A stretch of DNA of 64,000 nucleotides from Leclercia sp. S52 (GTDB lineage: Bacteria; Pseudomonadota; Gammaproteobacteria; Enterobacterales; Enterobacteriaceae). The notes under the pieces were generated by a model. It was not told where the DNA came from and did not search any database. It saw only the letters and a program-made list of their open reading frames with translations. A program made the position numbers and the translations under genes. The DNA lies in contig NZ_CP152474.1 of NCBI RefSeq assembly GCF_039727615.1, positions 930,001 to 994,000 of the forward strand, read 5' to 3'. Positions 6,008 to 26,761 of this stretch are shown here, piece by piece. Position 1 is the first letter of the stretch. Each line of letters begins with the position of its first letter.

Positions 6008-6014
6008 TCCCCTA

Positions 6015-9480: not shown

Positions 9481-9501
9481 CCCGCTCAGGACAATAACGG
9501 T

Positions 9502-9753
9502 TTACTGATAGATTTCAGCTACGCCATGCAGACGATTCTTGCCGGTGGCAGAGAGTATTTTGTAGGCGCTGGCCCCTTTTTCATCCGCCTTGCGTGAGAG
9601 TTCATCGGCTAAATTATCCAGGGTATAAGCATTGCTGGCGGAGACAACGCCTATTTTCTCTTTTCCATCAGCATGGCTTATTTGTTGAGCAGCCGATGCG
9701 GTATTCGCCGTCATGAACCCCATGAAAAGGACTGTCACAAGTGTTGCTTTCAT
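9502..9753 (-). CDS. Periplasmic DUF1471 (YhcN/BhsA-type) stress protein
   Basis: An 83-residue protein with a Sec signal peptide (MKATLVTVLFMGFMTANTASA, cleavage near residue 21-22) and a DUF1471 domain (about 30-83: EKIGVVSAS...LADELSRKADEKGASAYKILSA...LHGVAEIYQ). DUF1471 proteins such as BhsA, McbA and YhcN are small periplasmic or outer-membrane proteins induced by acid, peroxide, copper or chlorine stress. The ribosome-binding site AGAGGT precedes the ATG. It is the first gene of a probable pair with the MarA-like regulator, and the intergenic region upstream holds a TGACA-N4-TGTCA dyad. Confidence 0.85.
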   Translation of the reverse strand: MKATLVTVLFMGFMTANTASAAQQISHADGKEKIGVVSASNAYTLDNLADELSRKADEKGASAYKILSATGKNRLHGVAEIYQ

Positions 9754-9828
9754 GTTGTTTACCTCTTTAAATAACTGTCTGCATCAGGTTGTTTCTGCCA
9801 TGGAACCTTTTCCATGACCTTATCCGGT

Positions 9829-9834
9829 AATATA
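9829..9834 (-). promoter_or_regulatory. Candidate -10 element of the DUF1471/marA-like pair
   Basis: TATATT on the minus strand, about 22 bp (centre to centre) from the CTGTCA-N6-TGACGG dyad at 9845-9862. Inferred from position only. Confidence 0.35.
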
Positions 9835-9844
9835 CCGATCCGAA

Positions 9845-9897
9845 CTGTCAGCAGACTGACGGCGATATGACAGCAGTGTCAGCAACGGCGCTAAAAT
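9845..9897. promoter_or_regulatory. CusR/HprR-type operator region between the DUF1471 gene and lysR
   Basis: Two dyads lie in a row: CTGTCA-N6-TGACGG (9845-9862) and TGACA-GCAG-TGTCA (9868-9881, flanked A..G). A TAAAAT -10 candidate for lysR follows at 9892-9897. TGACA-N4-TGTCA is the core of the established CusR/HprR box, and the same dyad is found at the two-component operon in this window (16885-16900, 20297-20312). Confidence 0.6.
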
Positions 9898-9949
9898 GAA
9901 GAGGTCTGTGAAGACCCTTAGTGAATACGCGTTGAGGGGAAACGACTGA

Positions 9950-12809
<2,860 letters not shown>

Positions 12810-13041
12810 TTATTCGATTAGATGGGGTAATTAGCTAGGGTTTATTAGATGTGCTCATTAATTTAGAGAGGATGAAGAGCGGTTTTGTGTCAGAAGCGGG
12901 CATGGTAATCCTCTGTTCGGATACCTAAATTCAGTAAACCACATAATTTCGAGTGCATCCCAAAGTATATTGGACAGAAAATAACCTCTTGTGATATATG
13001 GTTAAACGTTAGTCACCAAAAAAAGTTGACGGAGGGAAGTG

Positions 13042-13732
13042 ATGCCGATGGGTGTTAAAAAAAGAACATAATGGACTGCCTGAAAGCTACTGCCATCGCG
13101 GCGATGAAGTGAAATCAGCTATAGTTAGAGATTATATTATTCAACCAGTGGCCCATCTGAAATTAATTCCGGGGCAGGTAAAGACAAGTTATTCCAAATA
13201 CCCGCTAACGGACCAGTACTATTGTTTTGCTTTCCAGGGACGAATATACAAAGAACACTCAGGCGCTTTTTTCTGTGGAAAAGACGTCGCCAAAGATTTT
13301 ATTCAACTGATCAATGGAACTGAGTTGCCTTTGTTTAACCCACTAAAATCTGAGAGTACTACAGGTGGGAGTAGTTCTGGTTCATCATCAGGTGGTTCCA
13401 GTGCAGGTATCAAACCAAATGCAGATAAGAGACTTTTTATAGATGCTGCAAGGTTGCTGATGATGTTATGGGACTCCACCAGTAAAGGCCAAACTCCATT
13501 AGCATATGTTCTAAACGAAGCCATCACTGACGGAATAGATAAACGCCCAGAGTTTAAGCATGTACTTAGCGTTAACACAATGCTGGGAAATACAAATAAT
13601 ACCCTGACAGGTTTACTCGCCGAGGCGAGAACTAAGTATCCCAATGTTTCATTCAGAGATTTTGATTTCTCACCTCTTAACGAAATCGTAAAACGCTCAA
13701 AGTACTACGATAAACATGTCCCGTGCTATTAA
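13042..13732 (+). CDS. Unrecognised protein with Ser/Gly linker; start region frame-broken
   Basis: I do not recognise this protein. The readable frame begins at GTG 13052 without a usable ribosome-binding site. Removing one A from the A7 run at 13057-13063 joins it to ATG 13042, which has GGAGGG at 13031-13036, and gives 229 residues starting MPMGVKKEHNGLPE. Two parts are visible: an N-terminal domain (about 1-100, with YYCFAFQGRIYKEHSGAFFCGK) and a C-terminal part (about 125-229, predicted mostly helical), joined by a low-complexity linker of only Gly/Ser/Ala (about 104-119). Base composition is clearly more AT-rich than its neighbours, suggesting separate acquisition. It stands alone between two unrelated transcription units. 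No function is assigned. Confidence 0.6.
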
Positions 13733-13862
13733 GCTTCCACATGTTGATCTGCCGGAAGAGCAATGAGCAAGTACATCAGTGTTCGCTCAAGGTCGAAAAT
13801 CATGTTAAACGGTTTTTTGTCAACATGAGGCCAGTTAATTTTTTTGATAAAACTGATGTGTG

Positions 13863-13892
13863 TATTGAGCCTTCATCAATGAAGGCTCAATA
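13863..13892. terminator. Strong hairpin between convergent genes
   Basis: A perfect 14-bp stem, TATTGAGCCTTCAT (13863-13876) with its complement at 13879-13892 and a minimal loop. It lies between the unrecognised gene (+) and the end of the envelope operon (-). No long T-run. Confidence 0.7.
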
Positions 13893-13902
13893 CTAGCTTT
13901 TC

Positions 13903-14967
13903 CTACTGCAGATCTTTTTCCTTCAGGAATTTACTCACCAAATCAGCAATCTGCACATTATTTAAATCAGAGAACGGGAAGTGGGTATTTCCTTTGATTC
14001 CCACTTCAGGCAGATGCGTCACAGTCACATCCCCGCCATGCTTGTTCACCACGTCACGCCACTCACGCGCCATCGCCAGTCTTACGCGCCAGCTGTCCTG
14101 CGCAGGCATGGCGACAGGTTTATCCGGTATGTTATCGCCGTAAATAATCAGAATCGGGATTTTGGTCAGTGCCATAAACTGCTCCATTGGCACAGGCTCA
14201 CCCTTCAGCGTGTCGAACGCGCTTGGCATAGGGGCTGGGAGTTCTTTTTCCGGGAAGACAAAGCTGCTGCCAGGCTCAAAGGCGACAATGGCTTTGACCT
14301 TGTCATTTTTCATCGCCGTGTACCAGCCTGGTCCGCCACCCTGAGAGTGGGTGAAGAGGATAGCGGGGCCAGATTTATCCACTACTGCGGACATCGCATC
14401 AGAGATGACATTGATATCAAACGGCCCGGTATTTGGGGTCATCTGACGGAAATACTGGTTCAGTGCTTCTTTGTCGTGAGAGAACTGAACGCCCTTAAAA
14501 TACTCTGGCCACACGCCAACGCGGAACTGATTGAACCACATCTGTTCATCCGGTTTAGGCGTAACAGTACCTTCTACAGTCGTACGTCCGGCGCTGCCCC
14601 GACGCGGCTGATCGACAAGATAAGTTGAGAACCCGCGACGCAGGAAGATGTTCTGGAACCCTTCGCGACCATCCGGGGTACTTTCCCAGGTACGGGAGAA
14701 CTGACCTGCGCCGTGCAGCATGACGATAGGGTATTTATGCGGATTCTCCGGGATTTGGTAGAACACAGACGCATGATCGCCATGATAAGTTTGACCAGCA
14801 GAGTCCAGCGGCTTTTTCGCGTCAAAAGTCCCTGGTGCGGTGATGATAGTGCCACCCGCAGAAAAACTTCCCTGTTCCTGAATGACCAGTGGCTCGGCAT
14901 ATACCGACTGAGCCACCAGGCCACTCGCTATCACGCAGACGGACAGTGTTTTTAAAAGTGTTTTCAA
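13903..14967 (-). CDS. Secreted alpha/beta hydrolase (last gene of the envelope operon)
   Basis: A 354-residue exported hydrolase. Sec signal peptide with cleavage at SVYA/EPL (about residue 24). The alpha/beta fold shows the oxyanion region VMLHGAGQFSRTW, the nucleophile elbow THSQGGGPG (Ser in G/H-x-S-x-G form), an acidic residue candidate in IIYGDNIPD, and the catalytic His candidate in KGNTHFPF. It starts with TTG at 14967 behind AGAGGAAA. It lies 23 bp downstream of the flavodoxin gene; being last of seven genes on one strand implies co-transcription. Substrate unknown; esterase or lactonase activity is likely from the fold. Confidence 0.82.
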   Translation of the reverse strand: MKTLLKTLSVCVIASGLVAQSVYAEPLVIQEQGSFSAGGTIITAPGTFDAKKPLDSAGQTYHGDHASVFYQIPENPHKYPIVMLHGAGQFSRTWESTPDGREGFQNIFLRRGFSTYLVDQPRRGSAGRTTVEGTVTPKPDEQMWFNQFRVGVWPEYFKGVQFSHDKEALNQYFRQMTPNTGPFDINVISDAMSAVVDKSGPAILFTHSQGGGPGWYTAMKNDKVKAIVAFEPGSSFVFPEKELPAPMPSAFDTLKGEPVPMEQFMALTKIPILIIYGDNIPDKPVAMPAQDSWRVRLAMAREWRDVVNKHGGDVTVTHLPEVGIKGNTHFPFSDLNNVQIADLVSKFLKEKDLQ

Positions 14968-14990
14968 AGGTATTTCCTCTTATTAATAAA

Positions 14991-15575
14991 TCAGCTGCGT
15001 ATCGTCTCTAACCAGCTGGTGACCGTTTCAGTGGTTCTTCGCTCCTGGTCGCATTCAATGACCAGCGGTTTTTCCCGACGTGCAGTCGGGGCAAGACGGG
15101 TAAGGATGTTGTCGCTGTCTCCTTTGCCGTAGCCACCGTGAGTAATGAAGGGGATGATTAACTTGCCCGCAAGGTTGTGGTCGCTGAGAAATGTTTGCAC
15201 TACAGGCGGCACGCTGGTCCCCCAGATCGGAAAGCCTAAATACAGGGTCTCGTAACGTGAGATATCTGCAACGCTATTTTTTAATGCCGGTTTTACGCCT
15301 CGCTCACGCTCATTTTTCGCCTGTTCAACGGTCTGAAAATAGTCTTCTGGATAAGGCGTAGCCGGTTCGATTTCAAACAGATCGGTATTCAGGCTGCGGT
15401 GAATGACGCCCGCAATGACTCGTGTATTTCCGCTCCGGGAAAAGTACACCACCAGAACACGGCTTTTACCCTGTACGTTTGCGGTTCCGGTCGCAGCTGA
15501 GGCAAAAGAAACGTTCGCCAGCGTGAGCCCGGCAAGTGCGGTGATTAACATTCTGCGGTTGGGATCATGCTCCAT
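14991..15575 (-). CDS. Exported flavodoxin-like protein with probable Tat signal
   Basis: A 194-residue protein with an N-terminal twin-arginine-like signal (NRRMLITALAGLTLA, cleavage near SFASA) and a flavodoxin domain (about 38-190). The FMN phosphate loop is VVYFSRSGNTR; further family segments are YPEDYFQTVEQAKNE and LYLGFPIWGTSVPPVVQTFL. Tat export would fit a protein that must bind FMN in the cytosol before transport. Ribosome-binding site TAGGAGTGG. It lies between the carboxymuconolactone decarboxylase-like gene (9 bp) and the hydrolase gene. The electron donor or acceptor in the periplasm is not evident. Confidence 0.82.
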   Translation of the reverse strand: MEHDPNRRMLITALAGLTLANVSFASAATGTANVQGKSRVLVVYFSRSGNTRVIAGVIHRSLNTDLFEIEPATPYPEDYFQTVEQAKNERERGVKPALKNSVADISRYETLYLGFPIWGTSVPPVVQTFLSDHNLAGKLIIPFITHGGYGKGDSDNILTRLAPTARREKPLVIECDQERRTTETVTSWLETIRS

Positions 15576-15584
15576 AATCCACTC

Positions 15585-16346
15585 CTAATTGTTTGCGAGC
15601 GCCTGCTGCAGCGCCTTTTCAGCTCGCGTTGCTGCATCACTTTCGCCATGTTCACGCAGAACCTGTGCCAGCTGGCGCAGCTGCGCTGCCGTCAGGCCGA
15701 CCCGCATGCTGGCTCGCGTATGGGATAACAGCTGGGCTTCAACGCCTGGGGTGGCGGCTAATGCGCCAACCGTTGCCAGTTCGCGGCTTTGCCAGTCGAG
15801 GTTATCGCGGGCGAAAATGTCGCCGAAAAGGTGCGTTTGCAGGAACTGGTTAATGACCGGGGCAAAATCAAACAGCGGACCCTGGACGGGAGTACCTGAG
15901 ATTTTAGTCTGGTTTGCGGTACCGACACGGCGAAGCTCATCCCCAACAGGGATCGGGGCAACGGGTTCTTTACCCTCAACGTCTTTGATACCACGTTGTT
16001 TACGTGCTTCGACGACCTTCATCAGTTCACTAAGCGCATTCAGGCTACGGGGGAAGCCCGTATAGGCATAAAGCTGGACGAGAATCTCTTTGGTTTCGTT
16101 TATTGTGAGCCCGGCGTCAAGACCCTGATTCAGGGCTGCATTCAGCTTATCCATCTGACTGCTGGCCGTCGATGCCGCTATCAACGGGATAGCCTGTTGG
16201 CTGGCTGACAGCGTATCTGAAACCGTTTTTTCGTGGTTCATTTCTGAGGCTCCTTTATTGACGGGCGCAGCATGTGCCGCGAGACCAAAACCAAAGGTCA
16301 GCAGTACCGATGCCGCTAATGCTTTAATGGGCGTGGTATTGTTCAT
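15585..16346 (-). CDS. Exported carboxymuconolactone decarboxylase (CMD/AhpD-fold) protein
   Basis: A 253-residue protein with a Sec signal peptide (cleaved at AAHA/APV, about residue 27) and two CMD-like helical repeats: about 60-115 (LNQGLDAGLTINETKEILVQLYAYTGFPRSLNAL) and about 170-245 (DNLDWQSRELATVGALAATPGVEAQLLSHTRASMRVGLTAAQL). The AhpD CxxC redox pair is absent, so a thiol peroxidase partner role is not supported. Its start lies inside the 3' end of the cupin gene (23-bp overlap), showing translational coupling. Exact reaction unknown. Confidence 0.82.
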   Translation of the reverse strand: MNNTTPIKALAASVLLTFGFGLAAHAAPVNKGASEMNHEKTVSDTLSASQQAIPLIAASTASSQMDKLNAALNQGLDAGLTINETKEILVQLYAYTGFPRSLNALSELMKVVEARKQRGIKDVEGKEPVAPIPVGDELRRVGTANQTKISGTPVQGPLFDFAPVINQFLQTHLFGDIFARDNLDWQSRELATVGALAATPGVEAQLLSHTRASMRVGLTAAQLRQLAQVLREHGESDAATRAEKALQQALANN

Positions 16347-16803
16347 CTGTCACTTTCTCCATCCAGTTAACGCTTTTGCCATCCACAATCCCGGTTATCG
16401 CCAGATGCGTCATCGCGCTGCCGGGTGCCGCCCCGTGCCAGTGTTTGACGCCCGCCGGGCAAGAGACAACGTCACCGGCGCGGATAACCTGCACCGGCTG
16501 GCCTTCTTGTTGGGTGAGCCCAACACCCGAGGTCACAATCAGCCGCTGACCTGCCGGATGCGTATGCCAGGCGGAACGAGCGCCGGGTTCAAACGTGACA
16601 TAAGCCCCGGAAACAGGGATGTCGTTATCCGGTTTGAAGAGAGGATCAACCCTGACACGACCGGTAAAGTTCTCGGCTGGCCCGAACACCGCGTTCTGAC
16701 TTCCTGCAGGGGCGATATGGTCAGCGGGATTTTGCTCCGCTGCCCAGGATGAAAATGTGAAGAAGGGCAGTAACAGCCCGAGGTAACGTAAATGTCCGAT
16801 CAT
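16324..16803 (-). CDS. Exported cupin-domain protein
   Basis: A 159-residue single-domain cupin with signal peptide (cleaved at SSWA/AEQ). Cupin motif 1: GARSAWHTHPAGQRLIVTSG (metal ligands His-x-His); motif 2: CPAGVKHWHGAAPGSAMTHLAI. This pattern resembles bacterial cupins annotated as (R)-mandelonitrile lyase-like, often found beside CMD genes. ATG 16803 has AAGGAC seven bases upstream and is preferred over a codon at 16821. A TGACA-N4-TGTCA dyad and a TAAAAT -10 candidate lie upstream inside the kinase gene, so this gene may head an internally promoted sub-operon. Confidence 0.83.
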   Translation of the reverse strand: MIGHLRYLGLLLPFFTFSSWAAEQNPADHIAPAGSQNAVFGPAENFTGRVRVDPLFKPDNDIPVSGAYVTFEPGARSAWHTHPAGQRLIVTSGVGLTQQEGQPVQVIRAGDVVSCPAGVKHWHGAAPGSAMTHLAITGIVDGKSVNWMEKVTDEQYHAH

Positions 16804-16844
16804 GCAAAGCGTCCTTATCAATGAAGAGGGGATTGCCTGCGATG

Positions 16845-16900
16845 ATTTTATCGGGAGGGTAATGACGTCAGGCTGACGCCCCCCCTGACAATTCTGTCAG
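16845..16900 (-). promoter_or_regulatory. Internal promoter with CusR/HprR-type box, upstream of the cupin gene
   Basis: CTGACA-ATTC-TGTCAG (16885-16900) is a perfect dyad lying in the 3' end of the sensor kinase gene. On the minus strand TAAAAT (16850-16845) lies about 45 bp (centre to centre) further towards the cupin gene. This would allow the response regulator to raise the effector genes independently of its own gene. Confidence 0.6.
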
Positions 16901-18327
16901 TTAACCCGGGTCCCGGCTCAGCGCCGGATTGTGCATTGCCCGCCGCTTTATCCGCTTGTATCGCAAAGGTGAGGCCAAATGTATTGATGCCACCTTCACT
17001 ACGGGCAAAGATATCTCCCCGGTGCATAATGGCGACGGCACGCACGATCGACAGGCCCAGTCCATGATGGGTATCACTCCTGGCTCGGGAGGTATCAACG
17101 CGATAGAACCGCTCGAAAAGCCGGTGTAAGTGCTCTGGTGCTATCGGATCGCCCGGGTTTGAAACTTCAACACAGGCTTGATGACCGGTTTCGCTTAACC
17201 GCACCGTAACCGTGCTGTTGGATGGCGAGTGTCTTGCGCTATTTTCCAGTAAATTAGCCAGTGAGCGGTGGAACAGTCGTCGGTCGATGTGCGCGGTGAC
17301 GTCGCCCTGAACATCCAGAGAGAGCTGTTTTTCAGCAAAAGAGGGTTCCACATACTCCGCTGTTTTCAGGGTTTCTTCCCGCAGGGACATCTGGGTAAGC
17401 TGGGACGCATGTTCACCCGCATGGGCATGGGACAGGAACAGCATGTCGTTAACGATAGACGTCATGCGTTCAAGTTCTTCCAGATTAGAACCCAATAACT
17501 CTTCCAGTTCATCCTGCGAGCGTCGGCGCGAAAGCCCCAGTTGCGTCTGACCGATCAGGTTAGTCAGCGGAGTCCGGAGTTCATGCGCAACATCGGCATT
17601 AAAGCTTTCGAGCTGCCGCCAGGCGACCTCCTGCCGTTCCAGCACGCCATTAAAAGATGATGCTAACTGCTGTAATTCGTCAGGTAATGCTTCGGTATTC
17701 AGGCGCTGACCATGGTCCCCGGGAGCGAGTTGCCGGGCCTGTTTACTGAGCGCCCCAACGGGACGAAGACCGATCCTTGAAACGACGTATCCCAGTAAGG
17801 CGACAATCACGACGCCCAGTGCGGTAATGATCAGCAATGTACGCGTGAACGCATTGAGTGTGCCCATGTACGGCGTGGAGTCGATGGCAACCACATAGCG
17901 CAGCTCAGGCCGCTCACCGTTGGCGGGGATCGTTTTCACTAACAGAAACAGCGAGCAGGCACCTTCTGATGCGCCGGGCACTTTATTAAAGCCTTCCTGC
18001 AAAGAAGACCACTGAACACCCACCGGTGGTGTTCCCCCCCATGCTAAAGCGTGGGTTATCGCTCACTATCCAGTAGCGAACGCGTTCACCTTCAGAATTG
18101 GTTAACACGGTGAATTTATTGGCCAGCGTCGACCAGCCGTCAGCAGAGGTTCGTGCGGTGATCCACGGACTCATTAATGATTCGCGGAACAACAGCTCGT
18201 TGTGCATCTGCTTTTGCAAAGAGTCATGCAGGGAGCTTCTGAGCAGGATGCCGATAACGGACACAATCAGCAGCGCGGATAAGGCAAACATCAGCGCCAG
18301 GTGAACGGAGATGGAACGCTTAGGCAT
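16848..18327 (-). CDS. Heavy-metal/HprS-type sensor histidine kinase, frame broken
   Basis: About 492 residues after repair. TM1 about 8-30, periplasmic sensor region about 31-165, TM2 in LLIITALGVVIVALLGYVV, HAMP starting RIGLRPVGALSKQAR, H-box FNADVAHELRTPLTNLIGQ (phospho-His), N-box LLENSARHSP, G-box HHGLGLSIVRAVA. As written it is two overlapping pieces (18342-17986 and 18023-16848). Removing one C from the C7 run at 18034-18040 gives SMGGTPPVGVQWSSLQEG without a break. The start is ATG 18327 with AAGGGG upstream; ATG 18342 directly follows the regulator's stop and is less likely. A C7 run at 16879-16885 also makes the last residues uncertain. The architecture is that of CusS/HprS kinases. 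Confidence 0.87.
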
Positions 18328-18342
18328 GCTTATCCCCTTCAT

Positions 18343-19024
18343 TTATTCGGACCGGACTTCGAGGACATACCCCATGCCACGAACCGTATGTAACAGCTTG
18401 ATATCGAACGGGGCATCCACTTTGGCTCGAAGTCGTTTAATGGCCACTTCAACCACGTTGGCATCGCTGTCGAAATTCATGTCCCATATCTGCTCCGCAA
18501 TCATCATTTTTGACAAAATCTCCCCCCTGATGCCGGGCCAGAAGGCTCAGCAGGGAAAACTCTTTCGCGGTCAGCTCCAGTCTTGTTCCGGCGCGAAATA
18601 CGCGACGAGCCAGCAGGTCGAGATGCAGATCGTGAATTTGCAGCTGGGTGATGTCTGCGCCATCCGTAGAGCGGCGGCGCACCAGGGCCTGAATACGCGC
18701 CACCAGCTCAATAAGCGAAAAGGGCTTGGGCAGATAATCATCCGCGCCAAGGCGAAGCCCTTTAACGCGCTCGTCGACCGATCCCCGTGCCGAGAGCATC
18801 AGCACCGGCGTCTGTTTGACTGCCCGCACGCCCTCGAGAACCCGATAGCCATCCATCCCTGGCAGCATCACATCCAGTATTATCGCGTCGTAGTCGAACT
18901 CCAGCGCGTAATGAAGACCTTCCGCGCCATCTGCAGAGACATCTACCGTAAACCCGGACTCACCCAGCGCACGGGAGAGATAGGTTGACGTTTTTTCTTC
19001 ATCTTCGACTAACAACAGGCGCAT
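18343..19024 (-). CDS. CusR/HprR-type OmpR-family response regulator, frame broken
   Basis: 226 residues after repair. The receiver domain (about 1-120) has the acidic pair VEDEE, phospho-acceptor Asp in [13 protein letters not shown], Ser/Thr in LMLSARG and Lys in YLPKPF. The OmpR-type winged HTH follows ([18 protein letters not shown]...). The written frame fails at the C6 run 18522-18527; with one C removed it continues [19 protein letters not shown]...[14 protein letters not shown]...[17 protein letters not shown], stop 18343-18345. The motif [20 protein letters not shown] is typical of CusR, PcoR and HprR. It lies 14 bp downstream of the exported AKR gene and abuts the kinase gene. Confidence 0.88.
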
Positions 19025-19038
19025 AACGGGACTTCCTC

Positions 19039-20205
19039 TTAACTTTTCATTGGTGCTTCAACATCGGAATAAACCTGCACGGCATCCGGCAGACGTTGCC
19101 CCTGGATAGTGATCGCATCCAGTGAACGGGTGAGCTCGGTCATCTCAGCGGAAGTCAGCAACACGGTGGTAGCCGCTGTGTTTTGCAGCATATGGTCTTT
19201 ATTGGTGGTGCCAGGGATGGGAACAATCCAGGCTTTACGGGCCAGGAGCCATGCCAGTGCAATCTGCCCCGGCGCGGCATTTTTTCGTATTGCCCAGGAC
19301 TTCAGTAGCTCAACCAGCTGTAAGTTGTGTGGAAGGTTATCAGGCGAGAAGCGTGTTTCTGTCGCGCGGAAATCACCTGCAGCGAACCGGGTATTCTCAT
19401 CAATCCAGCCTGTTAAAAACTGCACGCCGAGTGGACTCCATGGCACGAACCCAATGCCCAGCTCTTCACACACCGGAAGCGCCTGTTTTTCAGGGCCGCG
19501 CCAGAGCATGGAGTATTCACTTTGCACGGCGGTAACGGGCAATGCGGCATGGGCGCGTCTCAACGTGTTGATGCCCATTTCAGACAGACCCCAGTGCAGG
19601 ACTTTCCCTTGACCCATTAAATCCTTAACCACACCGGCGACATCTTCGATCGGGATCTGAGGATCAACCCGGTGCTGATACAGTAAATCGATACGATCGG
19701 TACGCAGGCGTTTGAGCATATTGTCGACGACCTGTCGGATATGCTCAGGTCTGCTGTTAAGGCCCGGCAGACGCTTACCCGTCTGTTGGTCAATGTTCCA
19801 GCCAAACTTGGTGGCGATAACGATTTTGTCCCTGAACGGGGCGACGCCTTCCCCGAGAATTTTTTCGACTTCAAACGGGCCGTAGGCTTCAGCAGCGTCG
19901 AAGAACGTTACCCCTTCATCAAATGCCCGGTGGATAACATTGATCATCTCGGGACGCCAGGGAACGGAGGTGTCGTATTTGCGACTCATGTTCTGCACGC
20001 CCAGACCGACGGCAGAAACTTCCAGCTTCCCGAGTTTACGCTTGCCCGGAGCAGCATTGCGTTGGCTGGATTGTCTGGATGAATCGACCTGAGAGGATTG
20101 GCTCGCCGCTGATACGTGCGGAATCAGCGAGGCGGCGGCAATACCGGCCCCGGCGACTAATAGCTTGCGCCGCTCTGGCATTGTTGGGGCATTCTGGCTT
20201 TTCAT
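19039..20205 (-). CDS. Aldo/keto reductase with Tat-type signal peptide
   Basis: A 388-residue AKR whose first about 50 residues are a twin-arginine-type leader (MPERRKLLVAGAGIAAASL, Ala-rich end at HVSAAS) plus a Ser/Gln-rich spacer. The catalytic domain is complete: FFDAAEAYGPFEVEKILGEG (Asp, Tyr), ATKFGW (Lys), [17 protein letters not shown] (His), [14 protein letters not shown] (cofactor). It is a paralogue of the cytosolic enzyme at 10894-11883. Tat export would allow NADP(H) to be bound before transport, but how it is recycled in the periplasm is unclear. First gene of the seven-gene operon, preceded by GGAGCGATCA and a CusR-type box. Confidence 0.86.
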   Translation of the reverse strand: MKSQNAPTMPERRKLLVAGAGIAAASLIPHVSAASQSSQVDSSRQSSQRNAAPGKRKLGKLEVSAVGLGVQNMSRKYDTSVPWRPEMINVIHRAFDEGVTFFDAAEAYGPFEVEKILGEGVAPFRDKIVIATKFGWNIDQQTGKRLPGLNSRPEHIRQVVDNMLKRLRTDRIDLLYQHRVDPQIPIEDVAGVVKDLMGQGKVLHWGLSEMGINTLRRAHAALPVTAVQSEYSMLWRGPEKQALPVCEELGIGFVPWSPLGVQFLTGWIDENTRFAAGDFRATETRFSPDNLPHNLQLVELLKSWAIRKNAAPGQIALAWLLARKAWIVPIPGTTNKDHMLQNTAATTVLLTSAEMTELTRSLDAITIQGQRLPDAVQVYSDVEAPMKS

Positions 20206-20276
20206 TGATCGCTCCGTTTCTCAGAAAATTGAACATGAATCTCATTTAAGCGAGACCATTCTGCCTTTGGATTGCC

Positions 20277-20393
20277 AACATAAAGCTGACGGCTACCTGA
20301 CAGCGTTGTCAGAAACACCTGCCTATCCAGTCTGTTTCCTGACAAAAATGTTATTTCCCTGTCACGATGCTGACAGCCCTCTCCGCCTAATCT
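20277..20393. promoter_or_regulatory. Divergent operator/promoter region with three CusR/HprR-like dyads
   Basis: CTGACA-GCGT-TGTCAG (20297-20312, perfect), CTGACA-AAAA-TGTTAT (20339-20354, two mismatches) and CTGTCA-N6-TGACAG (20359-20376, perfect, outward type). A minus-strand -10 candidate TATGTT (20282-20277) lies about 25 bp from the first dyad, and a plus-strand TAATCT (20388-20393) about 23 bp from the third. The region should drive the operon leftward and the hydrolase gene rightward under the same response regulator. Confidence 0.6.
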
Positions 20394-20454
20394 GAGCCTG
20401 CAAATTTGATTCCGCGAGCCTGAATAACCAGGCCGACATTCATCGGGAGAGGCC

Positions 20455-21504
20455 ATGAAATTCACGCTTATCAGTGCAATGCTACTCACGGCAATGGCTG
20501 GAGTGACCTCAGTCAATGCGGCTGATTACAAAAAAAATCCATTCACTCTCGTCTATAACGGAGCCATCACCGAGAACGTCAAAGGTAAGGTCAACATTCA
20601 CCCAGTGAAATACGATCTGCATGGCATCCAGATTGCGGCGAATGTCTATACCCCTGCTAACTACGATCCCGCAAAAAAATATCCTGCCGTGGTGGTTGCA
20701 CATCCTAATGGCGGCGTAAAAGAACAGGTCGCCGGGTTGTATGCCCAGCGTCTCGCCGAGCAGGGCTACATCACTATTACCGCCGACGCGGCTTATCAGG
20801 GTGCCAGCGGTGGGATGCCTCGCAGCGTGGATAAACCCGCTAATCGCATTGAGGATATCCACGGCATGGCTGACTACATCAGTCAGTATCCTGGTGTAGA
20901 TACCGCCCGCCTTGGTCTGCTGGGTATTTGCGGAGGCGGCGGGTATTCACTTGTTGCGGCTGAAACTGACAAGCGGTTCAAATCGATAGCAACCATCAGC
21001 ATGTTTAATTCAGGCCTTGTGCGCCGCAATGGTATGCAGGATTCACAGCTGGATACTATCCAGCAGCGTCTTCAGCAGGCTTCTGAGGCACGTGCTCAGG
21101 AAGCCGCCGGAGGAGAAGTGCTTTACTCCGGCGATGCCAACCTGACTGTTGAACAGATTGCTAAATTACCCTTTGCCTTATATCGCCAGGGCTACGAGTA
21201 CTACTGGAAAACCCACGCGCATCCGAACTCCACGTTTAAATACACCACCAGCAGTCTGCTGGATTTGATGAGCTTTGACGTAACGGACCATATCAATCTC
21301 ATCAATAAACCGCTGCTGATGATTGCCGGTACAAAAGCGGATACGCTCTATATGACTGAAGATGCGTTCGCGAAAGCCACAGGTACGAAGGACAAAGAAC
21401 TCTTCCTGATCGAGGGCGCTACCCATATCGAGACGTATTGGGTGCCAAAATACGTTGACCAGGCAATGCAAAAGTTAGACGTCTTCTTCGATAAAAATAT
21501 TTAG
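20455..21504 (+). CDS. Exported alpha/beta hydrolase (dienelactone hydrolase/YcjY-like)
   Basis: A 349-residue protein with Sec signal peptide (MKFTLISAMLLTAMAGVTSVNA, cleaved before ADY). The hydrolase core shows VVVAHPNGGVKEQVAGLYAQRLAEQGY and the nucleophile region LLGICGGGGYSLVAA, which has Cys at the position usually held by Ser, as in dienelactone hydrolase-like members; His candidate in EGATHIETYW. Start behind GGGAGAGGCC. Transcribed divergently from the envelope operon across a shared operator region, so it is probably part of the same response. Substrate unknown. Confidence 0.83.
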   Translation: MKFTLISAMLLTAMAGVTSVNAADYKKNPFTLVYNGAITENVKGKVNIHPVKYDLHGIQIAANVYTPANYDPAKKYPAVVVAHPNGGVKEQVAGLYAQRLAEQGYITITADAAYQGASGGMPRSVDKPANRIEDIHGMADYISQYPGVDTARLGLLGICGGGGYSLVAAETDKRFKSIATISMFNSGLVRRNGMQDSQLDTIQQRLQQASEARAQEAAGGEVLYSGDANLTVEQIAKLPFALYRQGYEYYWKTHAHPNSTFKYTTSSLLDLMSFDVTDHINLINKPLLMIAGTKADTLYMTEDAFAKATGTKDKELFLIEGATHIETYWVPKYVDQAMQKLDVFFDKNI

Positions 21505-21520
21505 TTAGCCTCCGATGACG

Positions 21521-21541
21521 CCCCAGCCGTGTAGGCTGGGG
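21521..21541 (+). terminator. Hairpin after the exported hydrolase gene
   Basis: CCCCAGCC (21521-21528), 5-nt loop, GGCTGGGG (21534-21541), 17 bp after the stop codon. Little T-run follows. Confidence 0.6.
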
Positions 21542-21641
21542 TATGTCCATCAGCTGTAGCCATTTTCCGCTTGCGTGTTCACGCGATAGACCCAGATTAA
21601 CGAAGTTGCGGTTAAAGATAATTACGCTGCTTAAATAGACG

Positions 21642-21660
21642 CTATGAATGGAATTCATAG
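21642..21660. promoter_or_regulatory. LysR-type (T-N11-A) dyad upstream of the nitroreductase gene
   Basis: CTATGAAT-GGA-ATTCATAG, a perfect 8-bp dyad. An almost identical element occurs at 23737-23755 upstream of the efflux gene on the other side. A further small dyad GTGAAT-C-ATTCAC is at 21723-21735, nearer the start codon. Confidence 0.55.
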
Positions 21661-21763
21661 ACCTAATCTGGAACCGGGAATGAAAACGATGAGCCTGATG
21701 TGACAGGATTGTTCGGGAGAGAGTGAATCATTCACTTCAAATTACTTTCAGGCGGAGAAGCAA

Positions 21764-22444
21764 ATGAGTACGCAAGAGCCAACATTTAGTGAGGTAGTAA
21801 AAAACAGATACTCGGCTAGAGCCTTTCTTCCATCTCCCATCCCCAGCGATATCCTCAAAGACATTTTGCTCGAAGCGCAATGCGCACCATCCAACTGCAA
21901 TACTCAGCCCTGGTCCCTGCATATCGCTGCAGGAGATAAACTTCGTGAACTAAGCCATGCGCTGACGGAAGCTCTGAGAGCTGGGAACTACAGTCTTGAT
22001 TTTACCTTTGATAAAGAAGCTTATCCCGAGCCATTCAGGCAACGGGCTTCGGAGCAGGGGCGCTCGTACTATCAGGCACTGGGCGTTGCGCGGGGGGATA
22101 ACTTAAGTCGCTCAGAAGTGGTCGAGCGTAATGTGAGATTTTTCGGCGCGCCTCATGTTGCCCTGCTGTTCATTCCTGCTGTAGGGGACAACGTTCGCGT
22201 AGCCTCGGACGCCGGTATGTATGCGCAGACATTCCTGCTTTCCTTGGCTGCCCGCGGTTACGCAGGTGTTCCACAGGCAGTGCTGAGTTATTTTGCCCAA
22301 ACGGTGCGTAGACTATTGAATGTTCCTGAAGGTTTCAGGCTGCTTTACGGTATTTCATTTGGGAGCCCAGATAAAACGCATCCCTCCCTGAGTTACAGGG
22401 AAGGACGGGTATCTCTGGACGAAAGTGTCGTCTGGCATCAATAA
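21764..22444 (+). CDS. Nitroreductase-family flavoprotein
   Basis: A 226-residue FMN-dependent oxidoreductase of the nitroreductase superfamily. N-terminal FMN-binding signature VVKNRYSARAFLPSPIPSDILKDIL, then AQCAPSNCNTQPWSLHI, and the C-terminal FMN site in LYGISFGSPDK. These enzymes reduce nitroaromatics, quinones or related electrophiles using NAD(P)H. Start at ATG behind GGCGGAGAAGC. It converges with the efflux gene (7-bp gap) and shares an operator-like dyad with it, so the two are probably co-regulated. Confidence 0.87.
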   Translation: MSTQEPTFSEVVKNRYSARAFLPSPIPSDILKDILLEAQCAPSNCNTQPWSLHIAAGDKLRELSHALTEALRAGNYSLDFTFDKEAYPEPFRQRASEQGRSYYQALGVARGDNLSRSEVVERNVRFFGAPHVALLFIPAVGDNVRVASDAGMYAQTFLLSLAARGYAGVPQAVLSYFAQTVRRLLNVPEGFRLLYGISFGSPDKTHPSLSYREGRVSLDESVVWHQ

Positions 22445-22451
22445 CGACGTT

Positions 22452-23654
22452 TTATTTTTTTATCTGAACGGTCAGTGCCATCAGGGCGCTGGCTGCTGTA
22501 AACAACGCAATTATCCAGCCCATCGTCCATGGTGTGCCATCACTGAACAGGGCAAGAAGAAGTGAAGAGATGATGCCACTGCCGTATTGTAACGCGCCCA
22601 TTAGCGCCGACGCGGAGCCTGCAACATTAGGCACTGCGTCAAGTGCGCAAGCTGTGGACGTAGCAGCGATGATGCCATTCATGGAGAAGAATACGAACAC
22701 AGCGCCGACAATCACGGTAATTCCACCGACACCCAGGCCGGTCGTGACCGCCAGCACGATTGCCGCAATAGCGGCGATGAATACGGCATTCCTGAGCAAC
22801 GCTTCCAGTGGATAGCGGTGAACCAGGCGTCTGTTGACCATGCTCACCGCCATCAGTCCAACAATGTTTACTGCAAACAGCCAACCGTAATGCTGCGGGT
22901 CAACGCCGAAGTACGTGATGTAAACAAACGGAGAACCGGTGATAAAGGCGTAGGCTGCAACATAGTAGAAGGTCAGGCACAAAGTAAACCGCATGTATCT
23001 GGCGTTGGTGAGCAAGGCATAATAGTTGTGAAATGCTCTGGTTACGGAGGCTTGCGAGCGTTTTTCAGCAGGTAATGTCTCCGGCAACCAGAATAAAGAA
23101 ATCAGCATTAATGTTCCGATAATCGCCAGCAGCCAGAAAATGGCATGCCATGAGGTGACTTTAATCATCTGCCCGCCGATCAGGGGCCCGGCAATCGGCG
23201 CGATGGCCATGATTATCATCAGTGTCGAAAGCATTTGTGCTGCACGAGTGCGGCTAAACAGGTCACGGATCATTGCTCGTGCCAGCATCGGCCCGGTACA
23301 GGCACCTAACGCCTGAAAAACACGCCAGAAGACTATTTGCACGATATCTGTTGATAACGCGCAGCCCACCGAGCCGACGATGAATAGACCTAAACCGATA
23401 AACAGCGGCAGTCGACGACCATAACGATCGCTAATCGGTCCCCAAATCAGTTGTGCAATGCAAAAACCGATAAGGAACCCTGTGATTGTCAGCTCTGCGT
23501 CACCCTGCAAATCTTTGGCCATGACAGGCATAGCTGGAAGATAGATGTCGGTTGATAAAGAGGTCACAGCCATCAGGGCGCTGAGAATGAGTAGAAACGA
23601 GAGACCTGTTTTGTTAGCTGTAGTCGACTGTGTTTGTGCCTGTTGATTAAGCAT
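22452..23654 (-). CDS. Bcr/CflA-family MFS drug efflux transporter
   Basis: A 400-residue inner-membrane protein of 12 predicted TM helices in the DHA1 Bcr/CflA group. Signatures: ALMAVTSLSTDIYLPAMPVMAKDL (TM1), GPISDRYGRRLPLFIG (motif A), RVFQALGACTGPMLARAMIRDLF (motif C-like region), GPLIGGQMI. Such pumps export bicyclomycin, chloramphenicol and similar drugs; its own substrate is unknown. The promoter region carries the CTATGAAT-GGT-ATTCATTA dyad. Confidence 0.88.
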   Translation of the reverse strand: MLNQQAQTQSTTANKTGLSFLLILSALMAVTSLSTDIYLPAMPVMAKDLQGDAELTITGFLIGFCIAQLIWGPISDRYGRRLPLFIGLGLFIVGSVGCALSTDIVQIVFWRVFQALGACTGPMLARAMIRDLFSRTRAAQMLSTLMIIMAIAPIAGPLIGGQMIKVTSWHAIFWLLAIIGTLMLISLFWLPETLPAEKRSQASVTRAFHNYYALLTNARYMRFTLCLTFYYVAAYAFITGSPFVYITYFGVDPQHYGWLFAVNIVGLMAVSMVNRRLVHRYPLEALLRNAVFIAAIAAIVLAVTTGLGVGGITVIVGAVFVFFSMNGIIAATSTACALDAVPNVAGSASALMGALQYGSGIISSLLLALFSDGTPWTMGWIIALFTAASALMALTVQIKK

Positions 23655-23736
23655 GGTGATCCGTTGGACATAAAGAGATAGGGGGGTATGTTAACGGGTT
23701 TGTGCTCGCTGATAATCACAGGGGGAAGGATAGAGA

Positions 23737-23755
23737 CTATGAATGGTATTCATTA
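23737..23755. promoter_or_regulatory. LysR-type dyad upstream of the efflux gene
   Basis: CTATGAAT-GGT-ATTCATTA, matching the dyad at 21642-21660 in 17 of 19 positions or better. It lies about 85-100 bp upstream of the efflux start codon. Confidence 0.5.
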
Positions 23756-23884
23756 ATACTGAGTATCAGTAGATTCATGAAACGCTGAACCTTAAAGAAC
23801 ACTCTTGGGAGAGACTAATTTAGCAGTCCGCACAGCGGGAACGTCACTCAGAGCGTTCAGCAGACCATAATCATGGATTAATCC

Positions 23885-24013
23885 TTAGTAACGAATAACC
23901 GTCACGTCTACACTGGCGGCATTAAGTTTTCGACCAAAAGCCTCACCCTCATCGCGCAGCACATCGAGTTCAGCGGTCTGAATCAGCGTGGGTGGCAGCC
24001 CCTGCAACTGCCC
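23885..24013 (-). pseudogene. Remnant of an esterase/lipase (alpha/beta hydrolase) gene, C-terminal part only
   Basis: On the minus strand about 42 codons read QLQGLPPTLIQTAELDVLRD, then EGEAFGRKLNAASVDVTVIRY and a TAA stop at 23885-23887. PPTLI-T-A-E-D-LRDEGEAFG-KL is the Asp-containing C-terminal motif of the Aes/hormone-sensitive-lipase esterases. No start or upstream part is found, so it is a decayed fragment. The rest of the 23655-24108 gap shows nothing I recognise apart from the dyad at 23737. Confidence 0.7.
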
Positions 24014-24108
24014 TGGGCATTATTTAAATTTGAAAATCTTATCTGTAGAGGAATAAAAAACACGCCCGACCAGGACAGTAGCCGGGCTTTACGGATTAAA
24101 CCGGAAGG

Positions 24109-24585
24109 TTACAGGCCCAGCTCTGATAACCCTGGATAATCGTCCGGACGACGCCCCAGCGGCCAGTGGTACTTGCGCTCGCTTTCCTTGATGCGCATAT
24201 CATTGATGCACGCGAAACGACGTTGCATCAGACCATCTTCGCCGAATTCCCAGTTCTCGTTGCCGTAAGAACGGAACCAGTTACCTGAATCATCGCGCCA
24301 CTCGTAGGCATATCGGACCGCAATGCGGTTGCCGCCAAAGGCCCATAATTCTTTAATAAGACGGTACTCAAGTTCCTTTTTCCATTTGCGCTCAAGGAAT
24401 CCTTTGGCTTCTTCGCGATTATTGGCAAATTCTGCGCGGTTACGCCATTTGGTATCCAGAGAATAGGCCAGCGAGACCTTTTCAGCATCGCGGCTGTTCC
24501 AGCCATCTTCAGCAAGCCTTACTTTTTCAATCGCTGATTCAAGGGTAAACGGCGGAAGCGGTGGACGAATTTGTGCATCAGACAT
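24109..24585 (-). CDS. DUF1348 (NTF2-like) protein
   Basis: A 158-residue soluble protein of the DUF1348 family, with the SnoaL/NTF2-like fold. Characteristic segments: [66 protein letters not shown] and the C-terminal [19 protein letters not shown]. Function unknown for the family. Ribosome-binding site AGGAG. The palindrome at 24735-24754, identical in its core to the one at the TetR gene, lies about 150 bp upstream, so TetR control is likely. Confidence 0.88.
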
Positions 24586-24734
24586 GGTAAAGACTCCTGT
24601 AAATTTGGGTAGATCGGTATGATCCTGCTTTATGAAACTCAGACATAAATTCCTCCACTGTTATTTGATGGTTCAGCATTGTCTATTAGCACTGGCATTC
24701 ATTTTCAGAGGGGGCGTGGTGTCTATGAATTGAT

Positions 24735-24754
24735 GGTAGAACGATCGTTCTACC
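24735..24754. promoter_or_regulatory. TetR operator (copy 1), upstream of the DUF1348 gene
   Basis: A perfect 20-bp palindrome GGTAGAACGA-TCGTTCTACC. A near copy is at 25622-25641 beside the tetR-type gene. Two copies near one TetR gene strongly suggest its operator. Confidence 0.75.
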
Positions 24755-24879
24755 TCGTCAATATAGTTTTTATGAAAATAGTTAAAAAACAAAAAACATC
24801 TCGATAAAGTTTTTAAGATGCTGATTAATAAGGTTTTGGTGAGATACAGAATAGCGGTAGAGGTAAGAGGGAGGAAAAA

Positions 24880-24942
24880 ATGAATACGATATCTATCGTT
24901 AAGTGTGGATTAACGCTAATAAAAACAGATGCAGGGTATTAA
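24880..24942 (+). CDS. Possible 20-residue small ORF with strong ribosome-binding site
   Basis: ATG at 24880 preceded by GGAGGAAAAA, then 20 codons (starts MNTISIVKCG) and TAA. It lies in the AT-rich 460-bp gap between the DUF1348 and tetR-type genes and would be read opposite to both. Nothing else in this gap is recognised beyond the TetR operator. It could be chance. Confidence 0.22.
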   Translation: MNTISIVKCGLTLIKTDAGY

Positions 24943-25046
24943 TATTTCAGAGTGCAGTGTGGAATTAAATTAATCACATATGTGTCAAAGCCTCCAGTAA
25001 TACTGGATATTCAGTGAGTATTTTATCTCTGGAATTCAGGTCTCTG

Positions 25047-25613
25047 TTATGAGACCTGTTTCAGTAATAGCTGAGCAATATTTTTGGCATCATCTGCGGC
25101 GCTGTAATCGCCCATAACACGTGACATGGTGATGGCACCTTCAATCAATAACAGCAACTGCCTTGCCAGGGATGAGGCGTGCTCAATATTCAACTGTCCG
25201 GTAAGTTCAAGCGCGTAATCCAGTATTTTCTGTTTATGCAGTCTGGCAATCTGGCGAACGGGATCGGCACTATCACCCACTTCCCCCGCAGTATTAATAA
25301 ATGCGCACCCGCGGTAGCCTTCTGACTCAAACCATTCTTTGAGCACGGTGAACATATTCAGGATGCGTTCCTGCGGCGTATCCGCTTTGTCGCACTCAGC
25401 CCTGAACCATTCCATCCAGCGAACATCTCGTGCGTTCAGCGCTGCTGCCGCCACTTCGTCTTTGTTGGCGAAATAGCGATAAATACTTTTGCGCGCCACA
25501 CCTGAAGTCTTTACAAGCAGATCCATACCGGTGGCATGAATACCGTTCTGGTAAATGAGCTGTTCAGCGGTCGCGAGAATTTTTTCTCGGGTATCAGTCG
25601 TGTTTTTGTTCAT
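25047..25613 (-). CDS. TetR-family transcriptional repressor
   Basis: A 188-residue protein with N-terminal TetR HTH (about 8-55: REKILATAEQLIYQNGIHATGMDLLVKTSGVARKSIYRYFANKDEV) and a C-terminal ligand-binding domain with the segment SEGYRGCAFINTAGEV found in many AcrR/YxaF-like members. An operator-like palindrome lies immediately upstream of the start codon (25622-25641), consistent with autorepression, and another at the DUF1348 gene. It is divergent from the alpha/beta hydrolase at 25.7-26.7 kb, probably a third target. Ligand unknown. Confidence 0.9.
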   Translation of the reverse strand: MNKNTTDTREKILATAEQLIYQNGIHATGMDLLVKTSGVARKSIYRYFANKDEVAAAALNARDVRWMEWFRAECDKADTPQERILNMFTVLKEWFESEGYRGCAFINTAGEVGDSADPVRQIARLHKQKILDYALELTGQLNIEHASSLARQLLLLIEGAITMSRVMGDYSAADDAKNIAQLLLKQVS

Positions 25614-25621
25614 GGATTAAT

Positions 25622-25641
25622 GGTAGAACGATCGTTCTCCT
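25622..25641. promoter_or_regulatory. TetR operator (copy 2), between tetR-type gene and hydrolase
   Basis: GGTAGAACGA-TCGTTCTCCT: the same palindrome as 24735-24754 with imperfect last positions, starting 9 bp from the tetR-type start codon. Confidence 0.75.
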
Positions 25642-25768
25642 CGGTCAAGTGCGCGTCAACACTCTTTTTGACCAGATGGGTTAAGGAGAGGGGGACGGCC
25701 AGCCTGAACGCGTCATCAGACAAACACCAGGCGACCAGAATCGCTATGAACCCTTTCTGTTTCGGTAG

Positions 25769-26680
25769 GCCGCCACTTCCACAACAGATAACGCATCTGC
25801 CTCGTCAGCTACGCAGATCCATTACCGCTATCAACAGTCAGGCGATGTTAACGTTTTCTACCGGGAAGCAGGCGATCCGGCAGCACCTGTATTGCTGATG
25901 CTTCACGGCTTCGCGGGCTCATCATTTATGTTTCGTGACCTTATTGCCCAGCTGGCCGATCGGTATCATCTCATCGCGCCAGATTTACCGGCCTTTGGTT
26001 TTACCGAGGCGCCAGCACGAGGTGAATATGCGTATACCTTTGACCAGCTTGCTAAGACCATTGGGCAGTTTGTCGAAGCGCTCAATCTCGATAGCTATGC
26101 TCTGATGGTCCACGACTACGGGGCACCAGTCGGATGGCGTCTGGCGTTAGCCCATCCGCAGCGCGTGACAGCCCTTATTTCCCAGAATGGCAATGCCTAC
26201 GAAGAGGGCCTGGGAGAGGCCTGGGCACCTATCCAGAAATACTGGCGCGAACCCACTTCTGAAAACCGACGTTCGCTGAGTGAATTCCCGACGCCAGCTT
26301 CAATCAAATGGCAGTATCTGGAAGGCGTTGCCGATCAGAGTCTGGTTTCACCTGATGGTTATACGCTTGAAGGGATACAGGTATTACGGCCGGGTAATGC
26401 GGAGATACAGCTGGATCTGTTACTGGATTATGCTTCTAACGTGAAGATGTACCCCCTGTTTCAGCACTATTTCCGCCAGTATCAGCCTCCGTTATTAGCC
26501 GTATGGGGAAAAAACGATCCGTTTTTCATGGCGGCGGGAGCAGAAGCCTGGAAACGTGATCTGCCTGAAGCTGAAATACGCTTTTATGACACCGGCCACT
26601 TCGCACTTGAAACGCATGCTCAAGAGATAGGTATCGACGTGCGTGATTTTCTTGACCGGCATGTCCGCCAGTCAAATTAA
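25769..26680 (+). pseudogene. Alpha/beta hydrolase (haloalkane dehalogenase-like), N-terminus disrupted
   Basis: The catalytic part is intact: VLLMLHGFAGSSFMFRDLI (oxyanion region), DLPAFGFTEAP, MVHDYGAPVGWRLA (Asp nucleophile in the HDYGAP elbow, as in haloalkane dehalogenase-like enzymes), LAVWGKNDPFF (acid) and FYDTGHFALETH (His). Coding sequence clearly continues upstream of the first in-frame start (TTG 25892) through HYRYQQSGDVNVFYREAGDP back to about 25769, but an in-frame TAG at 25766-25768 precedes it and no NTG codon lies between. An ATG at 25746 is in another frame. So either one base is missing near 25746-25769 or the gene is genuinely truncated; translation from TTG 25892 would lose about 40 residues. 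Divergent from the tetR-type gene across its operator. Confidence 0.75.
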
Positions 26681-26751: not shown

Positions 26752-26761
26752 TAAAACAGTC

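Follow-up and report, generated by a model that had tools for sequence, protein, structure and literature searches.

A mobile, CusR-boxed gene block of enterobacteria as a candidate system for detoxifying reactive carbonyls and lactones

What would a two-component system of the CusR/CusS kind be doing beside six apparently exported enzymes? The question is raised by a block of eight genes (13903..21504) in a 64,000-nucleotide stretch of the genome of Leclercia sp. S52 (contig NZ_CP152474.1, positions 930,001 to 994,000; this whole stretch is hereafter the window, and coordinates are those of the window). An earlier reading of the sequence (the original prediction) had described the block as an envelope detoxification operon with its own regulators. 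We arrive at a related but wider reading, to which we give an even chance: the block would be the core of a mobile system that detoxifies electrophiles (carbonyls and lactones) in two compartments, the envelope and the cytoplasm, under the control of CusR-type boxes.

Both the open reading frames (ORFs) and their domain matches confirm the eight genes at 13903..21504, seven on the minus strand and a divergent one on the plus strand. From the divergent promoter, the minus-strand genes encode an aldo/keto reductase (AKR; akr, 19039..20205, PF00248), a response regulator (18449..19024, receiver domain), a histidine kinase (17986..18330 and 16848..18023, HisKA/HATPase), a cupin (cup, 16324..16803), a CMD-fold protein (cmd, 15585..16346, PF02627), a flavodoxin (fld, 14991..15575, Flavodoxin_4) and an alpha/beta hydrolase (hydA, 13903..14967); the plus-strand gene encodes a second alpha/beta hydrolase (hydB, 20455..21504). 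The tight spacing noted originally was borne out (14 bp between akr and the regulator gene, 9 bp between cmd and fld, 23 bp between fld and hydA, and an overlap of 23 bp between cup and cmd). A box and a promoter-like stretch lie directly upstream of cup, which makes at least two transcription units likely. The block is thus probably not one simple operon, co-transcription of the whole set being deduced from spacing.

To place the block among its relatives, we scanned a collection of genome contigs with the CMD protein. Of 183 stretches encoding relatives, the best 80 were kept and the other 103 left out, so that the counts lean towards close relatives; five annotated loci (L083–L087) were added by choice from the best E. 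coli matches (two of 20 listed) and plasmid matches (three of 20 listed). The counts below refer to the resulting 85 loci, from which the genome's own loci (L001 and L002) are excluded. Loci encoding the regulator at 80% identity or more (39 of 85) are called regulator-bearing, and gene-order matches required at least 60% identity.

By these thresholds, the eight-gene order (hydB divergent from akr-regulator-kinase-cup-cmd-fld-hydA) recurs beyond chance, being found in 21 of the 85 loci, in records of Rahnella, Enterobacter, Pseudescherichia, Atlantibacter, Kosakonia, Buttiauxella, Erwinia, Serratia, Pantoea, Raoultella, Rouxiella, Aeromonas, Escherichia and Klebsiella; the gene order on which the original prediction was built is therefore conserved. 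Within this group, two additional genes separate kinase and cup in L016 and L087, frames are broken in L073, akr and hydB are broken in L087, and hydA is partial in L046. The central order regulator-kinase-cup-cmd is present in all 39 regulator-bearing loci and the divergent hydB in 38 (L014 begins inside akr), while cup and cmd lie no more than 150 bp apart in 38 of the 39 and in 33 of the 46 loci without the regulator. Part of the block is matched by 357 of 5,426 E. coli genomes, five of which contain 80% or more of it at a single site, as do 14 of 897 matching plasmid records, and the CMD gene was found in eight of 61 genomes of the window's genus (E <= 1e-60) and in 31 of 392 genomes, from 26 of 154 genera, of its family (E <= 1e-80; own genome included in both). 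The block recurs across families, chromosomes and plasmids, and we reject the possibility that it is an oddity of a single strain.

Several copies depart from the common layout. Six loci (L013, L016, L017, L023, L024 and L087) have two extra ORFs between kinase and cup, for another Flavodoxin_4 protein and for a membrane protein with DUF4405, identified by their domains in L016, by annotation in L087 and by size and position in the other four; the box upstream of cup is present in all of them but L024. This pair suggests a membrane electron supply in these versions of the block. In P0001 and P0012, kinase and cupin domains are joined in one predicted protein of 663–666 residues, which may be a fusion or a frame artefact. 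L025, from a record titled Chryseobacterium sp. 18061, is an enterobacteria-like copy (CMD protein 81% identical) and possibly reflects contamination or mislabelling.

Comparison with a genome of the same species (G002) shows in what setting the block lies. G002 matches window positions 1–9067 and 26818–64000, with short gaps near 44–46 kb, and has other DNA in between, which defines a strain-specific island (9068..26817) inserted just 3' of a tRNA-Thr(cgt) gene (8989..9064, plus strand, ARAGORN). A second copy of the tRNA end was not found within the window, nor was an integrase among the island ORFs scanned with domain profiles. The core of the block is 89.6–95.8% identical in 17 of 20 compared copies from several families, on chromosomes and plasmids (L034, L037 and L046 are divergent and gave no core alignment); for comparison, one 1.7-kb backbone stretch is 84% identical in a congener (G004). 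Of the plasmid copies typed, one is conjugative, one mobilizable and one non-mobilizable. Such near-identical copies on chromosomes and plasmids of many enterobacteria mark the block as mobile.

The unit is also larger than originally drawn. Alongside the block, three annotated copies out of five (L083, L084 and L086) have genes for an SDR, a LysR regulator, two cytoplasmic AKRs, a nitroreductase and an MFS exporter, the last being split by an insertion sequence in L083; L085 and L087 lack part of these surroundings. The window lacks the SDR and has the others: the LysR regulator (9965..10897, plus strand), the AKR akr2 (10894..11883, minus strand), a DkgA-like AKR (11910..12803, minus strand, the true start probably being internal), the nitroreductase-family protein (21764..22444, plus strand) and the Bcr/CflA-type exporter (22452..23654, minus strand; TIGR00710, 297.6 bits, cut-off 200.9). 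Both of these AKRs start directly at the catalytic domain, having no export signal.

All six non-regulatory products of the block, by contrast, had been predicted to be exported, and their N-termini in the window fit this view. The AKR (PERRKLL) and the flavodoxin (NRRML) have starts of the twin-arginine translocation (Tat) type, in which both arginines, preceding a hydrophobic stretch, are kept in at least 90% of 29 AKR and 35 flavodoxin sequences (window included). The CMD protein, the cupin and both hydrolases have hydrophobic starts of the Sec type, which were also seen in the five or six distant orthologues printed per family, the CMD N-terminus being variable. As far as motif conservation tells, a lack of signal peptides, which would have spoken against the original prediction, was not observed; the Tat signals of two proteins are conserved, and the Sec signals of the other four are putative.

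Conserved catalytic residues point to the chemistry of these proteins. The AKR, closest among solved sequences to perakine reductase (3uyi, 197 bits), has kept its active-site tetrad (D and Y in 41 of 42, K and H in 42 of 42 sequences). The His/His/Gln/His metal ligands of the cupin are invariant (76 of 76); this protein is a predicted member of the (R)-mandelonitrile lyase family (NCBIfam NF049940, 177.1 bits versus a cut-off of 140) and most resembles 4bif (161 bits), which we take to be a cupin hydroxynitrile lyase. HydA (nearest 4q34, 403 bits) has its serine, within HSQGG, and its histidine in 55 of 55 sequences, while HydB, similar to YcjY (5xb6, 193 bits) and dienelactone hydrolases and falling below NCBIfam equivalog cut-offs, has a predicted cysteine nucleophile (C159, within GICGGG, 69 of 69) together with D296 and H324 (68 of 69). 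The flavodoxin (nearest 3klb, 86 bits) retains its SRSGNT loop in 38–39 of 39 sequences. The CMD protein matches solved CMDs weakly (best 58.6 bits) and has no cysteine in the window; a cysteine after residue 40 occurs in five of 86 aligned relatives and a CxxC motif in none. AhpD-type peroxidases carry CxxC, and we therefore reject an oxidant-scavenging role of this type for the CMD protein. Taken together, the export signals and catalytic residues are consistent with an envelope-directed set of enzymes suited to carbonyl, ester and lactone chemistry, the individual activities and the substrate class being predictions.

The assignment of the regulators to the CusR/HprR type proved sound, the response regulator being 54% identical to CusR and 52% to HprR. 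Moreover, the E. coli K-12 CusR pattern TGACA-N4-TGTCA, found in the cusR/cusC spacer (hprR has the variant TTACA-N4-TGTAA), occurs at four places in the 4.93-Mb genome, three of them in the island: between the DUF1471 gene and lysR (TGACAGCAGTGTCA, 9868..9881), upstream of cup within the 3' end of the kinase ORF (16886..16899), and on the akr side of the akr/hydB spacer (20298..20311). The fourth is near a glycan-enzyme-like ORF (G000:C1:623157). A second box with one mismatch (20340..20353), on the hydB side of the same spacer and 42 bp from the exact one, is present with variation in ten other aligned sequences. With one mismatch allowed, the window has six boxes, a number reached by none of 100 shuffled sequences (mean 1.39).

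Among the relatives, exact boxes occur in 38 of the 39 regulator-bearing loci (73 in 706 kb), the exception being L024, which has broken genes, as compared with four boxes in 730 kb for the 46 loci without the regulator. Counted from the individual rows, the box lies upstream of cup in 35 of the 39 and in the hydB spacer in 29; it was seen near the SDR or DUF1471 gene in three (L004, L012 and L083), because most flanks do not reach that region. Within the genus, islands with three boxes recur in G029, G011 and G048. Across 16 genomes of the genus, all 11 CusR-like regulators listed at 50–51% identity have a box 72–82 bp upstream (read from the rows), and six regulators at 46% identity have one about 1.6 kb away. 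As these other regulators share the box, cross-talk is likely. No other kinase of the genome is more than 33% identical to the block kinase (E <= 1e-20, with its C-terminal ORF as query).

The sensor of this kinase sets it apart from CusS and HprS. Its core is 40% identical to CusS and 32% to HprS, but its sensor part matches neither of them significantly, and a search with the modelled sensor fold (pLDDT 70.1, pTM 0.45) gave no confident match, the best in the PDB being a PhoQ sensor with an E value of 0.28. In the 38 aligned relatives (L073 and the genome's own fragment L001 were left out), the sensing methionines of HprS, presumably M72 and M153, are kept in none, and the column of its transmembrane cysteine, presumably C165, is T, A or S in 37. 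Excerpts of the HprS study describe sensing by two methionines and one cysteine (PMC10151825), and those of a CusS study give H42, F43, H176, S84, M133, M135 and H145 as periplasmic Ag/Cu ligands (PMC10100754). Of the five Met/His residues among these, none of the 38 relatives has kept H42, M133, H145 or H176, and the M135 column is Met in six, the loop alignment being uncertain. Instead, the block sensor has its own conserved residues: M41, H42, C124 and M154 in all 38, and H34 in 36. Of 159 kinase homologues, 120 were listed and two short ones dropped; in the remaining 118, H34 is present in 117 (read from the rows), QMHNEL in 116, a cysteine within residues 101–145 in all, and the M154 motif in 117. 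However, because the sensor sequences differ little from one another (mean column identity 92% in 31), this invariance is weak evidence, and the conserved Met, His and Cys are suggestive only. The analogy by which copper or hypochlorous acid (HOCl) had been named as inducer consequently gains no support, most CusS ligands and HprS M72/M153 not being kept.

The original prediction had also taken both regulators as intact; in the given assembly, they are frameshifted. The response regulator frame, which has a length difference at a 6-base run, stops after 191 residues and gives no winged-helix match, the DNA-binding domain being out of frame. Each of the five annotated copies has a complete regulator. 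The kinase comprises two ORFs in different frames, 18330–17986 (first transmembrane helix and part of the periplasmic sensor) and 18023–16848 (HAMP, HisKA and HATPase), with a length difference at a 7-base run; in 38 relatives it is an ORF of 472–547 residues (in one of these, L024, out of frame at the start), and in the 39th, L073, it is broken. Compared with three relatives, the frame is changed in the window core by three single-base extras (in the regulator, in the kinase and near the kinase/cup junction), all within runs of 6–7 identical bases and with the window longer each time; in the akr/hydB spacer it is one base shorter. The backbone behaves similarly. Relative to G002, frame breaks occur in two of 33 conserved window ORFs (three breaks in all), and, in the reverse comparison, one of 35 window ORFs splits into two frames in G002, the window having an extra base in a C run; the remaining splits (one and two) reflect partial coverage. 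At C/G runs of five or more bases, the alignment rows have 10 single-base extras in the window and none missing. These extra bases (for instance at 28336, 38963 and 53948) suggest systematic homopolymer errors across the assembly. Since the breaks coincide with homopolymer runs and almost every relative compared has open frames, they are most likely, though not provenly, assembly errors.

From these observations, we propose the following scheme. In the membrane, a kinase that combines a CusS-type catalytic core with a periplasmic sensor of its own would phosphorylate the CusR-type regulator, which would bind the boxes in the akr/hydB spacer, upstream of cup and near lysR/DUF1471 and so turn on the six exported enzymes. 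Two of these, an NAD(P)H-type AKR and an FMN flavodoxin, would be loaded with their cofactors before export via Tat; together with a metal cupin, a CMD-fold enzyme, a serine hydrolase and a cysteine hydrolase, they may reduce, cleave or open reactive compounds of the carbonyl, lactone or quinone type in the envelope. Compounds that pass through would be handled by the LysR-linked cytoplasmic AKRs, the nitroreductase and the exporter, and, in relatives, the SDR.

A number of observations weigh against this scheme. The substrate is deduced from family chemistry, and the scheme offers no route for re-reducing the AKR in the periplasm. At 50% identity, the AKR was not found in 13 of the 39 regulator-bearing loci, the flavodoxin in eight and HydA in six (some flanks being cut), so the gene set appears modular. 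Raw box counts are not enriched: the reversed control pattern also occurs four times in the genome, and the 16 genomes of the genus contain 70 boxes versus 63 reversed ones (summed from the rows; 1–11 versus 1–10 per genome), which leaves only placement informative. Even placement is not uniform, as G047 and G036, which have the CMD gene, lack a box in its vicinity, a single island box is present in each of G025 and G022, and G002 and G005 have three and four boxes without the regulator (E <= 1e-40). The contrast between loci with and without the regulator is confounded by lineage, since the latter are mostly non-enterobacterial and all four of their boxes are in the 11 enterobacterial ones. 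Finally, there are the frameshifts of both regulators in the given assembly.

If these frameshifts are real, the operon would be decaying and unregulated in this strain. Broken copies do exist elsewhere (L024, L073, and L087, where akr contains a stop and hydB is frameshifted), but the enzyme genes of the window are open, and the confinement of the core extras to homopolymer runs, a pattern repeated in the backbone, leads us to regard true pseudogenes as quite improbable. We think it equally improbable that the block is catabolic rather than protective, serving to use or clear plant-derived cyanohydrins, nitriles or lactones. The cupin's membership of the (R)-mandelonitrile lyase family and its likeness to 4bif would suit such a role, homologous clusters with LysR exist in Pseudomonas and others, and one plasmid copy lies near aldoxime dehydratase-family and carbon-nitrogen hydrolase genes; these genes, however, occur in only one of the five annotated regions, which have no uptake or central-pathway genes, and a regulator of the CusR type would be odd for such a function.

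The two remaining alternatives concern the signal. The kinase might respond to Cu(I) or Ag(I) through other ligands (H34, M41/H42, M154 and C124), with the enzymes handling products of metal-driven oxidation, as the CusS/CusR-like core, regulator and box would suggest; the model places H34 and M154 close to the two membrane helices, in positions roughly comparable to those of CusS H42 and H176, the occasional Met at the M135 column and the alignment of CusS M143 with C124 would also fit, and one plasmid copy is near an ars operon. The loss of four of the five CusS Met/His ligands, the lack of an identified sensor fold and the absence of a copper exporter, metallochaperone, copper oxidase or other Cu/Ag efflux output from the annotations of the five regions make this version unlikely. 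Alternatively, C124 and the conserved methionines could sense reactive chlorine or other oxidants, in a response like that of HprSR-MsrPQ. According to excerpts of the literature, HprR and CusR have a common recognition sequence (PMC9302797, PMC8249747), HprSR is triggered by HOCl via two periplasmic methionines (PMC10151825), and a CMD gene is among those raised by HOCl (PMC7464077). The conservation of C124 is in keeping with this, yet close relatedness of the sensors weakens that argument, the HprS methionines are not kept, the CMD protein has no cysteine, and no methionine sulfoxide reductase is annotated in the five regions; we consider this version unlikely as well, and the two versions of the signal about equal.

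Several further features of the island and backbone deserve mention. Next to the tRNA gene, on the minus strand, are genes for a RamA/SoxS-like AraC regulator (9115..9480; 156.9 bits, below the RamA equivalog cut-off of 180) and a BhsA-like DUF1471 small protein (9502..9753; 75.4 bits, below the cut-off of 90). The gap between hydA and the DkgA-like gene resembles a cargo slot: it measures 194–213 bp in L003, L009, L073 and L084–L086, is occupied in L083 by a SIR2-HerA defence pair (634 and 813 bits), in L004 by an Mrr-type nuclease and in L012 and L013 by metabolic genes, and contains in the window (12804–13902) an ORF of 226 residues (13052–13732) without a Pfam or PADLOC match; in L087, a PDC-S65 protein adjoins hydA. 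In the backbone, and also in G002, positions 28302–33801 encode molybdopterin, FAD and 2Fe-2S proteins with a weak TAT_signal match, resembling periplasmic aldehyde oxidase, followed by a UbiD-family gene; a 542-residue ORF in this stretch (30467–32095) splits into two frames in G002. Elsewhere on the same chromosome, a second cluster (L002, G000:C1:3787959) encodes relatives of the cupin (50%), the CMD protein (31%) and LysR (53%), together with an incomplete match to the DkgA-like AKR (49% identity across 32% of the query).

CusR-type systems have established roles in exporting metals and, by way of HprR, in repairing methionine. The present block appears to drive exported metabolic enzymes instead, and its copies have passed from one bacterial family to another and onto plasmids; if our reading is right, the periplasmic handling of reactive carbonyls and lactones becomes directly testable, since the regulon is defined by three box sites and the signal of only one kinase needs to be screened for. 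More speculatively, and with more doubt than confidence, the block might add to the CusR-box network, next to Cu/Ag efflux and the repair of methionine sulfoxide in the periplasm, a third and transferable branch, with a new thiol/thioether/imidazole kinase sensor for periplasmic electrophiles or oxidants and a complete envelope pathway for carbonyls and lactones, whose cofactor-loaded, Tat-exported AKR and flavodoxin would in some versions be reduced by the DUF4405 membrane protein; the shared box would then couple the pathway to metal stress where CusR or SilR is present.

The regulator class and the enzyme families are thus known, while their combination is unusual and its mobile spread wide. 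Among the listed matches in open-licence PMC literature, we found no description of this gene set, and the CMD and AKR genes in the excerpted Yersinia plasma transcriptome (PMC2631605) could not be tied to the block. With E. coli CusSR and cusCFBA, the block shares the regulator and kinase core types, the box and a divergent promoter, but its output consists of enzymes rather than a Cu/Ag efflux pump, and its sensor lacks both detectable similarity to that of CusS and most of the CusS ligands; a plain Cus copper system is rejected. HprSR and hiuH-msrPQ likewise have a similar regulator, a divergent layout and exported redox enzymes, but differ in sensor residues and in the hprR box, and neither MsrPQ nor HiuH is annotated in the five regions, nor was this output met in domain scans of the window. 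The cupin passes the family cut-off of the (R)-hydroxynitrile lyases represented by 4bif and keeps their metal ligand pattern, differing in its Sec-type start. The enzymes themselves are homologous to those of LysR-linked cupin-CMD-hydrolase-AKR clusters of Pseudomonas and others, and the LysR of 28 of the 46 loci without the block regulator is 45–59% identical to that of the window. In contrast to the block, these clusters lack, within the flanks retrieved, a regulator of its type by the 80% threshold (L061 encodes a distantly related pair, 40% and 24% identical), and the 35 non-enterobacterial loci have no exact box. We infer that an older, LysR-linked enzyme set may have gained CusR-type control in enterobacteria and Aeromonas.

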